A DNA stretch of 35,998 nt from an uncultured Gemmiger sp. (lineage in GTDB: Bacteria; Bacillota; Clostridia; Oscillospirales; Ruminococcaceae). This document shows positions 15,274 through 35,998 of this stretch, in pieces. Within the stretch, counting starts at the first letter, position 1. Every line of letters begins with the position of its first letter. Both the position numbers and the translations under genes were made by a program. Under the pieces are notes generated by a model that was not told the origin of the DNA, searched no databases, and saw nothing but the letters and a program-made list of their open reading frames with translations. The stretch covers positions 1 through 35,998 of the forward strand of contig CALXHP010000014.1 in assembly GCA_944388135.1 (NCBI GenBank). Direction: 5' to 3'.

Positions 15274-15611
15274 TGCTTTCGCCTCCTAATAAAATTTGTG
15301 CCTTAGGCGAGCCGATAAACCACACACGTTTCCGGGCGTTCAACTTTCTCGCATGACAAAATCCGGTGAACCGTTTTGCACAGTTCTCCCGGAAAGAATC
15401 ATCACAAAGTCAGTCGAACATTGGTCCGTACCGCAGAATGCAGCGACGTACATATCCCTTTGTTTCCGTAATTCTTTCGCCCGGTTCTAAGATCGGACAT
15501 ACTCCGCGGAAAAACCCGTCTGCCTATTGGCGGACGGCAACCTCCCGCATCAACGCATATCGCGGCTTGCGCAGAACGCTTGTAGCATTCCGCCCAAGCC
15601 TTTCGCAGCCG
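15274..15611 (-). promoter_or_regulatory. S10 operon 5' leader
   Basis: About 340 nt of untranslated leader between the predicted transcription start and rpsJ, covering most of a gene-free stretch. It contains a long hairpin at 15564-15600 (GGCTTG/CAAGCC plus a 9-bp inner stem with a five-base loop), a terminator-like hairpin at 15510-15537 (separate entry), and a hairpin at 15363-15392 (CCGG/CCGG with GAACTG/CGGTTC). A 75-codon reading frame across it starts upstream of the transcription start and is not a gene. Control by an r-protein is inferred from position only. Confidence 0.55.
15510..15537 (-). terminator. Attenuator-like hairpin in S10 leader
   Basis: In the transcript, CCGTC-C-GCC pairs with GGC-A-GACGG around an AATA loop, and the stem is followed by GTTTTT. 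That is the shape of a weak intrinsic terminator (five U residues) about 75 nt into the leader. It may be an attenuation point for the superoperon rather than a full terminator. Confidence 0.45.
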
Positions 15612-34254: not shown

Positions 34255-35616
34255 TCAGATTTTCAGGATGCCCTTGGCTATATTGAAATAGATCAGCAGC
34301 GTGGTGGTATCCACAATGGTGGTGATCAACGGCGATGCCATGACCGCCGGGTCGATCTTGAGCTTTTCCGCCACCACCGGCAAAAGACCGCCGATCAGCT
34401 GGGACAGCAGCACCGTACAGGTCAGGGTCAGGCAGACCACCAGGGCCACCGGCGCTGTGACCCGGTCAAAGATCAGCAGCTTGGCAAAGTTGCACACCGA
34501 AAGGGTCAGACCGCAGAGCAATGCCACCCGGCATTCCCGCCAGAGGATACGGGGCAGATCGTGAGGGGCGATGTTCCCCACCGCCATGCCGCGGATAATG
34601 GTGGAGGTACTCTGGCTGCCTGCATTGCCGCCTGCATCGGTCAGCATGGGAATATAGGCGGTAAGCACCGTGACAGCGGCCAGGGCACTTTCGTATCCGC
34701 GGATGACCAAGCTGGAGAAGGTGGCGCTGATCATCAGGAACACCAGCCAGGGGGCGCGGCTCTTATACAGGTCCCACATGGACTGTTTGAAGTAAGGCTT
34801 GTCGGAGGGGCCGATGGCGTTCATCTTGGCGAAGTCCTCGCTGGCCTCGTCCTGCAGGATTGAGATGGCATCGTCGATGGTTACGATCCCCACCAGGCGC
34901 TTTTCCGCGTCCACCACAGGAATAGCCAGAAAGCCGTACTTTTCAAACAGTTGGGAAACATCTTCCTGGTCGGTGGTCGTGGATACGCTGACTACATTGG
35001 TATCCATCATATCCCGGATCAGGCGTTCCGGCTTTTTTTCCAGCACCAGCGCCCGCAGGGATACCACACCGATCAGTGTACGGTCCTTGTCGGTCACATA
35101 GCAGTTGTTGATGGTCTCCTTATCAATACCGTTGGCACGGATGGAATCCATGGCCTGGGTCACCGTCATATCGGGACGCAGCTCCATGAACTCGGTGGTC
35201 ATTACACCGCCGGCGGAATCCTCGGGATACTGGAGCAGTTCGTTGATCATGCGGCGGGTCGCAGGGTCGGCCTGGGCCAGGATTCGTTTCACCACGCTGG
35301 CAGGCATCTCCTCCACCAGATCCGTCGCATCGTCGACGAACAGCTCATCCACAACGGCTTTCAGTTCCTTATCAGTCAGGCCGTCGATGAGGTTCTGTTG
35401 GGTTTCGGGGGTGAGTTCGGCAAAAATTTCCGCGGCCAGATCCTTGGGGCACAGGCGGAAAAGCACCGGCAGTTTCTCCGGCGGCAGATCCTCAAATACA
35501 GCGGCAAGGTCAGGGGCGGGCAGGGTCTCCATAACATCACGCAGGCTCTGGTACTTCTTCGCGTCGTCCAGGTTGGCCAGCATGGTTTTCAACGTCATGA
35601 TTGCAGTATCAGACAT
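34255..35616 (-). CDS. mgtE: Magnesium transporter MgtE
   Basis: 453-residue MgtE-type Mg2+ channel. The N-terminal superhelical domain (~20-130) is rich in acidic repeats such as FEDLPPEKLPVLFRL and VDDATDLVEEMPA. Two CBS domains follow (~137-255; VSLRALVLEKKPERLIRDMM and IPVVDAEKRLVGIVTIDDAI), which sense Mg2+. Five transmembrane helices make up ~285-453, with the pore motif PMLTDAGGNAGSQS. Its ribosome site is buried in a terminator-like hairpin and preceded by a leader ORF, so expression is probably controlled after transcription starts. Confidence 0.96.
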   Translation of the reverse strand: MSDTAIMTLKTMLANLDDAKKYQSLRDVMETLPAPDLAAVFEDLPPEKLPVLFRLCPKDLAAEIFAELTPETQQNLIDGLTDKELKAVVDELFVDDATDLVEEMPASVVKRILAQADPATRRMINELLQYPEDSAGGVMTTEFMELRPDMTVTQAMDSIRANGIDKETINNCYVTDKDRTLIGVVSLRALVLEKKPERLIRDMMDTNVVSVSTTTDQEDVSQLFEKYGFLAIPVVDAEKRLVGIVTIDDAISILQDEASEDFAKMNAIGPSDKPYFKQSMWDLYKSRAPWLVFLMISATFSSLVIRGYESALAAVTVLTAYIPMLTDAGGNAGSQSTSTIIRGMAVGNIAPHDLPRILWRECRVALLCGLTLSVCNFAKLLIFDRVTAPVALVVCLTLTCTVLLSQLIGGLLPVVAEKLKIDPAVMASPLITTIVDTTTLLIYFNIAKGILKI

Positions 35617-35647
35617 AAAAAAGCTGCCTCCTTTTCGGGCGGCAGCT
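35617..35647 (-). promoter_or_regulatory. Terminator-like hairpin covering the mgtE ribosome site
   Basis: AGCTGCC (35641-35647) pairs with GGCAGCT (35622-35628), with an inner CC/GG, and is followed by TTTTTT directly before the mgtE ATG. The GGAGG ribosome site (35627-35631) lies in the loop and 3' arm. The stem could therefore stop transcription, block translation, or both. A second GGCAGC in the leader (35742-35747, codons 17-18 of the leader ORF) can pair with the 5' arm as an alternative. Confidence 0.75.
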
Positions 35648-35678
35648 CACTCCATTTTTATGCAGGGCAATGCAAAGC

Positions 35679-35795
35679 TCAGCCCAGCTCTGCGCAGACA
35701 TAGCGCAAAGTAAGGCTTGCCCCAATATAAAAAACGGGATGGCTGCCAATATTGATACATCGGTACACGGGACTGGGACTACTGGGCGTATCCAT
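35679..35795 (-). CDS. Proline-rich leader peptide of mgtE
   Basis: 38-codon ORF beginning MDTPSSPSPVYRCINIGSHP and ending in TGA 63 nt before mgtE. AGAGAGGTGG lies 5 nt before its ATG, a good ribosome site. It lies wholly within the mgtE leader. The start (Met-Asp then three prolines within nine residues) recalls enterobacterial mgtL, where an acidic, proline-rich nascent chain destabilises ribosomes at low Mg2+. Its codons 17-18 contain the GGCAGC that competes with the mgtE hairpin. Coding status is inferred from ribosome site, position and residue pattern. Confidence 0.6.
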   Translation of the reverse strand: MDTPSSPSPVYRCINIGSHPVFYIGASLTLRYVCAELG

Positions 35796-35850
35796 GACAA
35801 CCACCTCTCTTTTTGTTACATTCTCATTTCGGGTCTCCATACCCGCCCTT

Positions 35851-35880
35851 ACTTTACCACCCCGGGCCCCCTTTCGTCAA
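35851..35880 (-). promoter_or_regulatory. Promoter of the mgtE leader
   Basis: -35 TTGACG (35875-35880), 18 nt, -10 TAAAGT (35851-35856) on the minus strand. Transcription near 35844 would give a leader of about 230 nt. The spacer is extremely G-rich. A CGGGT/ACCCG hairpin lies at the start of the transcript. Confidence 0.65.
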
Positions 35881-35925
35881 CCCCCAAAAAACACATTTTT
35901 ACACAGAAAATCCCCCGCCGGGTTC

Positions 35926-35998
35926 TGAAGTGACCCCAAAAAGTTAGACAATAATTTCAAATAAAAATTGTTCAAGCAACCGAAAGGGCTTGTTGTCT
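35926..35998 (+). mobile_element. Probable end of an IS3/IS150-type element (partial)
   Basis: From 35926 the sequence begins TGAAGTGACCCCAAAAAGTT and continues AGACAA, which I recognise as resembling the terminal inverted repeat of IS3-family (IS150 group) elements, including the 5'-TG end. The rest, including any transposase, would lie beyond the window. The boundary is 46 nt from the mgtE -35. Recognition is from memory of the pattern only. Confidence 0.45.

Follow-up and report, generated by a model that had tools for sequence, protein, structure and literature searches.

Translation-based sensing of Mg2+ has been worked out in enterobacteria, and the locus considered here raises the question of whether a short open reading frame (ORF) in the leader of a clostridial mgtE gene serves a comparable role. 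The window, that is, the whole 35,998-nt stretch of DNA analysed, derives from an uncultured Gemmiger sp. (contig CALXHP010000014.1), and mgtE occupies positions 34255..35616 of its minus strand, encoding a Mg2+ transporter of 453 amino acids with the Pfam MgtE_N, CBS and MgtE domains. All leader features given below lie on the same strand. A consensus scan places a promoter-like TTGACG-N18-TAAAGT at 35851..35880, before a leader ORF of 38 codons plus stop (MDTPSSPSPVYRCINIGSHPVFYIGASLTLRYVCAELG; 35679..35795) recognised from the ORF list and by comparison. Its ATG lies at 35795 and its stop at 35679, and the 38-residue product begins MDTPSSPSPVYRC, with a single acidic residue (D2) and three prolines among the first nine residues. 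The ribosome-binding region GAGAGGTGGTTGTC (35796..35809) contains AGGTGG at 35806-35801 as the ribosome site of the ORF. A preliminary description of this DNA had proposed a leader ORF with this start and a good ribosome site, and both are present. The end of the window (35903-35998) matches 13 other sites within its own genome (93-100% identity), many of them at contig ends; it has the look of the end of a mobile element situated where the assembly breaks. Elsewhere in the window, an S10-Clostridia ribosomal protein leader (RF03136) is found at 15477-15561 (minus strand, 49 bits).

Four segments of the leader are able to enter alternative pairings. Segment 1 (GGTGGTTGTC, 35805-35796) can pair with segment 2 (GGCAGCCATC, 35738..35747), as judged from the sequence and RNAalifold. 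Segment 2 starts at codon 17 of the ORF, beyond AGT (Ser) codons 5, 6 and 8 (AGT AGT CCC AGT, 35772..35783) and a CGA (Arg) at codon 12 (35760..35762) that is conserved on comparison, and it is the alternative partner of both segments 1 and 3. Its GGCAGC (codons 17-18, 35747-35742) is complementary to GCTGCC at 35646-35641, a match already pointed out in the preliminary description. Segment 3 (AGCTGCC, 35641..35647) is the 5' arm of the mgtE hairpin, and segment 4 (AGGAGGCAGC, 35623..35632) comprises the mgtE Shine-Dalgarno sequence AGGAGG (35632-35627) and the 3' arm GGCAGC (35628-35623), both segments being assigned from sequence and folding. Between the leader element and the hairpin, RNAalifold on 13 genus leaders predicts a middle folded domain (35664..35723). 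The hairpin AGCUGCC...GGCAGC spans 35647-35623 and encloses the mgtE AGGAGG, and a U6 run (35617..35622) adjoins the mgtE ATG (35616) as a terminator-like end. The 51-nt hairpin is predicted at -18.5 kcal/mol (z -3.0 relative to shuffles), in keeping with the earlier claim that the ribosome site of mgtE is masked by a hairpin running into U6 just before the ATG; the whole 331-nt leader is no more stable than its shuffles (z -0.33). The predicted G+C-rich hairpin followed by a U run has the form of an intrinsic terminator, and a consensus terminator scan with a loop limit of 8 did not have it among its output.

The arrangement is conserved throughout the genus. Searching named genomes yielded 34 mgtE loci, labelled Gemmiger, Faecalibacterium, Subdoligranulum or Pseudoflavonifractor, and with the window added and L040 dropped for want of an mgtE start, the genus set comprises 34 leaders. 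From 32 of these (all but L033 and L034) a leader-start model was built; it has a single match in each of 33 genomes among the 35 that represent the window's genus, and every match directly precedes mgtE (31 retrieved as loci and the other two). No mgtE was found in the two genomes lacking a match, which are 84% and 93% complete. The pairing of leader and mgtE is not due to chance, and the ORF-start conservation for which the preliminary description had asked is present. Among 297 genomes of the family the model has 14 matches; the five strong ones all fall within the genus, and the loci of the nine weak ones contain no mgtE. In 33/33 genus leaders scanned (all but L033), the leader ATG is preceded at 69-96 nt by a TTGAC...TANNNT site, accompanied by TGGTA in 32. 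A GGCAGC-like element follows a CGA codon by 13-27 nt in 31/34 genus leaders, the exceptions being L033, L034 and L037, the last of which has GGCAGC and lacks CGA. Segment 2 starts on average 17 nt after CGA, which is roughly where the leading edge of a ribosome pausing at that codon would lie, given the footprint size; its position is only slightly tighter relative to CGA (sd 2.7 nt) than to the ATG (sd 3.1 nt). The reading frame of GGCAGC is not fixed (20, 11 and 2 of 33 across the three frames), which points to a role as RNA.

Beyond the genus, 188 mgtE leaders were compared (34 genus set, 65 family, 89 order). Early upstream ORFs (uORFs) were picked by eye or by an Asp/Glu-codon-2 pattern, and the counts reported are those of a later rule-based scan; thus, the presence of Asp or Glu at codon 2 in all 34 genus leaders is biased, since the initial pattern required it, and the scan supplies the fair count. 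Among starts led by a ribosome site in the 188 leaders, codon 2 is GAN in 132/306 on the forward strand vs 3/166 on the reverse strand. A ribosome-site-led Met-Asp/Glu ORF occurs in 128 leaders (33/34 genus, 45/65 family and 50/89 order), and under the filter used none was found in the other 60; L033 falls outside the 128 because its ORF, though the start is present, runs into mgtE. The frame is kept and the start and ribosome site are conserved, as is characteristic of a protein-coding small ORF. The uORFs range from 14 to 60 amino acids (23-60 in the genus), and no conservation of their C-terminal ends is apparent by eye. MD[ATSV]G (43/95) is the start most readily recognised in uORFs from outside the genus. 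The proline-rich start put forward in the preliminary description holds within the genus, where 32/33 leader ORFs have at least two prolines; elsewhere, 37/95 uORFs have none in residues 2-14, and proline was accordingly rejected as a universal feature. Residues 2-8 include one acidic residue in 112 of the 128 uORFs, two in 15 and three in one.

The strongest shared features of these ORFs are in-frame AGT (Ser) and CGA (Arg) codons. CGA, which was not a selection criterion for the 128 uORFs, occurs in frame within codons 4-18 in 112 of them, with counts of 18 and 22 for the remaining two frames, and in-frame CGA persists after removal of near-duplicates (81/96) and outside the genus (80/95). 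It is the first Arg codon in 109 of 124 Arg-containing uORFs, compared with 2.8% of 1796 Arg codons in mgtE; the figure of 93% CGA among Arg codons of the 112 uORFs was set aside, as these were chosen for CGA. AGT supplies 75% of Ser codons in the 112 CGA-bearing uORFs vs 6% in mgtE; no other codons are as frame-specific as AGT and CGA in the set of 96 non-redundant leaders. Across the order, A(G) frequently comes after AGT in the uORFs, as seen in an enrichment of GTA in frame +1 and of TAG in frame +2; this bias would appear to be an RNA-level constraint beyond codon choice. A further 88 class-level mgtE leaders, counted separately from the 188, include 47 with a ribosome-site-led Met-Asp/Glu ORF (55/190 such starts forward vs 3/70 reverse). 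By eye, PLP occurs close to the uORF start in 14 of these 88 leaders, with CGA in codons 4-18 in 2 of the 14, so CGA belongs to the order-level type and not to every such ORF. In five class-level leaders (L278, L283, L285, L288 and L293), uORFs about 106-107 nt before mgtE have an early proline and end in ..ITTNRVVWL-like sequences; these perhaps represent a second uORF type.

The connection to Mg2+ made in the preliminary description extends to a second kind of transporter gene, as similar ORFs precede some MgtA-type ATPases. An exact MDAGS-type start pattern has 15 matches in 295 genomes of the order (its reverse has none), of which 14 precede mgtE. The remaining match precedes, at a distance of 570 nt, an ORF truncated by the end of the locus; the best family matches of this ORF are Mg2+ P-type ATPases, with scores below whole-protein cut-offs, as is to be expected of a fragment. 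At L249:1501-2071, two Met-Asp/Glu uORFs (MDAGSRRK.. and MESGSKRSPEPDGRHR..) lie upstream of an MgtA-like Mg2+ ATPase ORF. In a small set of 16 Mg2+ ATPase loci above the family cut-off, one per genome, a ribosome-site-led Met-Asp/Glu ORF is found within 600 nt in nine; on visual inspection, four of these (L349, L353, L355 and L356) resemble those before mgtE, and one of the four has an early CGA. The corresponding count for 14 loci of other P-type ATPases is two, neither of them mgtE-like by eye. The leader ORF before Mg2+ transporter genes is real and widely conserved. As to known Mg2+-sensing RNAs, the M-box is detected in three of the 60 related mgtE loci scanned, a subset of those fetched. 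In two of the three, L088 and L090, an M-box and a uORF share one mgtE leader, with the uORF downstream, a possible two-stage control by Mg2+.

The leader may adopt mutually exclusive structures, with three helices predicted to compete. Computed on chosen short segments of 31 genus leaders, mean energies are -15.5 kcal/mol for 1:2 (leader ribosome site with GGCAGCC), -16.3 kcal/mol for 2:3 (GGCAGCC with GCUGCC) and -15.1 kcal/mol for 3:4 (the mgtE hairpin). In the window the corresponding values are -16.0, -13.5 and -16.7 kcal/mol, 2:3 being the weakest. The two-pairing switch first envisaged needs amending: the 2:3 pairing is possible, and a third exists between the leader ribosome site and GGCAGCC. 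Likewise, the U run claimed for the hairpin end, at a length of at least five before the mgtE ATG, is present in 22/31 genus leaders measured, absent in eight and interrupted in one; in the eight leaders without it, 2:3 is the strongest of the three helices. The covariation sought between GGCAGC and GCTGCC did not emerge, as that of the 2:3 flanks is not significant within the genus (p 0.26). RNAalifold on the 13 genus leaders gave no 1:2 pair changed on both sides, and all eight pairs with both-side changes lie in the middle domain.

Across 116 leaders, pairing of the mgtE ribosome site exceeds that in shuffles (p 5e-10), a modest effect in that 32 exceed 90% of their own shuffles; this and the other p values are optimistic, since the sequences are related. 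Pairing of each leader with its own partner was assessed between the 40 nt after CGA and the last 60 nt before mgtE, with 91 of the 112 CGA leaders having sufficient length. In 59 non-genus leaders, own-partner pairing scores -19.4 vs -17.3 for cross-species pairs (0/2000 permutations), and the longest exact complement between leader and pre-mgtE region is 6.84 for own vs 5.85 for cross-species pairs (79 leaders, p 1e-8). The segment from leader ribosome site to CGA pairs better with its own pre-mgtE region in the order set, and no better in the genus (p 0.98) or family (p 0.195). The best leader helix falls on the anti-ribosome-site arm less than random placement would give in 52 leaders from outside the genus (0.475 vs 0.54), and also in the 31 of the genus (0.035 vs 0.167), where the best-helix rule may select other helices. 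As the best helix lies off this arm, simple competition is unproven, and it is not claimed outside the genus.

Taken together, these data partly support the regulatory interpretation of the preliminary description. We consider it probable, at roughly 60%, that the translated leader ORF controls mgtE by attenuation in the manner of MgtL, a reading based on sequence comparison. We infer the sensing of Mg2+, the translation step that senses it and the exact ON/OFF order as follows. When Mg2+ is ample, ribosomes would traverse the leader and cover segment 2, upon which 3:4 would form and mgtE would be terminated, its ribosome site masked, or both (OFF). When Mg2+ is low, ribosomes would slow, stall or drop off early in the ORF near CGA, a position that in the window's genus immediately precedes segment 2; left free, segment 2 would capture segment 3 and expose the mgtE ribosome site (ON). 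In a leader free of ribosomes, again in the window's genus, 1:2 would fold and 3:4 would stay formed. CGA is decoded via an inosine-adenosine wobble pair and AGU by G-U wobble. In an assay with a Salmonella leader, CGA is reported to be decoded at a slower rate than CGU and CGC (PMC4046918). It is conceivable, if doubtful, that the codons themselves are the sensor, early CGA and AGU slowing or ejecting the young ribosome at low Mg2+ in this Clostridia order and perhaps in E. coli mgtL.

Other explanations would assign the ORF a different role or none. Were the leader a structured RNA aptamer, that is, a Mg2+ riboswitch with an incidental ORF, some RNA-level constraint would be accounted for, AGT being often followed by A, as would the middle domain with its eight both-side-changed pairs in 13 genus leaders. 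Yet RNAalifold on 32 genus leader starts returns no consensus pair, on which ground a conserved aptamer at the leader start was rejected, and the distance from ATG to CGA steps through 27, 30, 33 or 36 nt in 31/34 genus leaders. The third base of the genus proline codons also varies, CGA and AGT are mostly in frame, and no Rfam riboswitch was found in the window leader. The M-box model (RF00380) in particular finds nothing in the window at its gathering score and nothing at E<=10 within 35500-35998, in agreement with the preliminary description. An aptamer is thus quite unlikely. Only slightly less so is a uORF that senses nothing and, by being translated, merely holds mgtE at a constant level. 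In its favour, no signal is directly in evidence; against it, the alternative helices are balanced in energy, the leader pairs better with its own pre-mgtE partner than with those of other species and the device is used before two kinds of Mg2+ transporter gene.

The fixed Arg CGA and Ser AGT codons could instead belong to an attenuator that responds to amino-acid supply through charged tRNA-Arg or tRNA-Ser. There is, however, typically a single early Arg codon by eye and no run, the constraint falls on one synonymous codon and not on the amino acid alone, and the downstream genes seen are Mg2+ transporters, all of which makes this reading improbable. More improbable still is a functional micropeptide acting on MgtE: its start is conserved and adjoins the transporter gene, but a product of 14-60 amino acids (23-60 in the genus), with ends that look unconserved and a fixed choice of synonymous codons, speaks against it.

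If control of mgtE by translation of the leader ORF is borne out, leader peptides of the same logic, with two codons held contrary to gene usage, would be found across Clostridia, on mgtE and some mgtA genes, and would represent a widespread strategy. They would also offer a clean test of which translation step feels Mg2+, be it the nascent chain, codon decoding or ribosome stability. Should the codon reading hold in addition, a codon-level Mg2+ sensor would stand before Mg2+ transporter genes across this Clostridia order.

Several known systems invite comparison. The M-box (ykoK) riboswitch, which senses by RNA and not by translation, differs in having no match in the window. The mgtE riboswitch is known from B. 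subtilis. Mention of an mgtE riboswitch is made in PMC12288461. The Thioalkalivibrio mgtE motif (SRC-65-1) is, by its description, likewise a pre-mgtE leader element that includes the ribosome site, but is a proposed riboswitch candidate confined to Thioalkalivibrio (PMC11109978). The mycobacterial M-box uORF2 (Rv1805A) is a conserved small ORF with a conserved proline in a Mg2+-responsive leader, yet is described as mycobacteria-specific and under M-box control (PMC12810186). MgtQ, of Salmonella mgtB, is described as a translation-aborting ORF that needs its acidic residues and promotes translation of a Mg2+ transporter; the likeness is one of description, and MgtQ sits between mgtC and mgtB in the operon (PMC8092293). 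Among the matches listed from titles and abstract openings of the open-licence literature, no leader ORF of the present type is described in Clostridia.

The closest counterpart is MgtL, which precedes mgtA in E. coli and Salmonella and is likewise a short ORF with an acidic codon 2 before a Mg2+ transporter gene. Alternative RNA pairings are a feature of MgtL and are predicted for the present leader. According to published passages, mgtL is translated inefficiently at low Mg2+ on account of its prolines and acidic residues, and ribosomes drop off at EPDP; changing both acidic residues in a strain lacking EttA raises mgtL expression and leaves the expression of an mgtA fusion undetectable, and efficient mgtL translation represses mgtA through Rho-dependent termination (PMC11552253, PMC11282234). 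The in-frame short ORF upstream of a Mg2+ transporter gene is shared here. The EPDP motif, with two acidic residues and prolines, is not, as the window ORF has D2 only, and it is therefore not assigned to the MgtL family; with one acidic residue in most such ORFs, the window's included, the sensing chemistry of MgtL cannot be assumed. The phylum also differs, the Clostridia ORF mostly precedes mgtE, and where MgtL acts by Rho-dependent termination, the Clostridia leader has a predicted hairpin with a U run and a ribosome site that would be masked. In the one genome considered, the E. coli K-12 mgtL (L154:2432-2485; GAA CCT GAT CCC ACG CCT CTC CCT CGA CGG AGA) also contains CGA, directly after Pro-Leu-Pro and within an Arg run (CGA CGG AGA). 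The strong constraint on AGT and CGA codons is a further difference between the Clostridia-type leader and MgtL.
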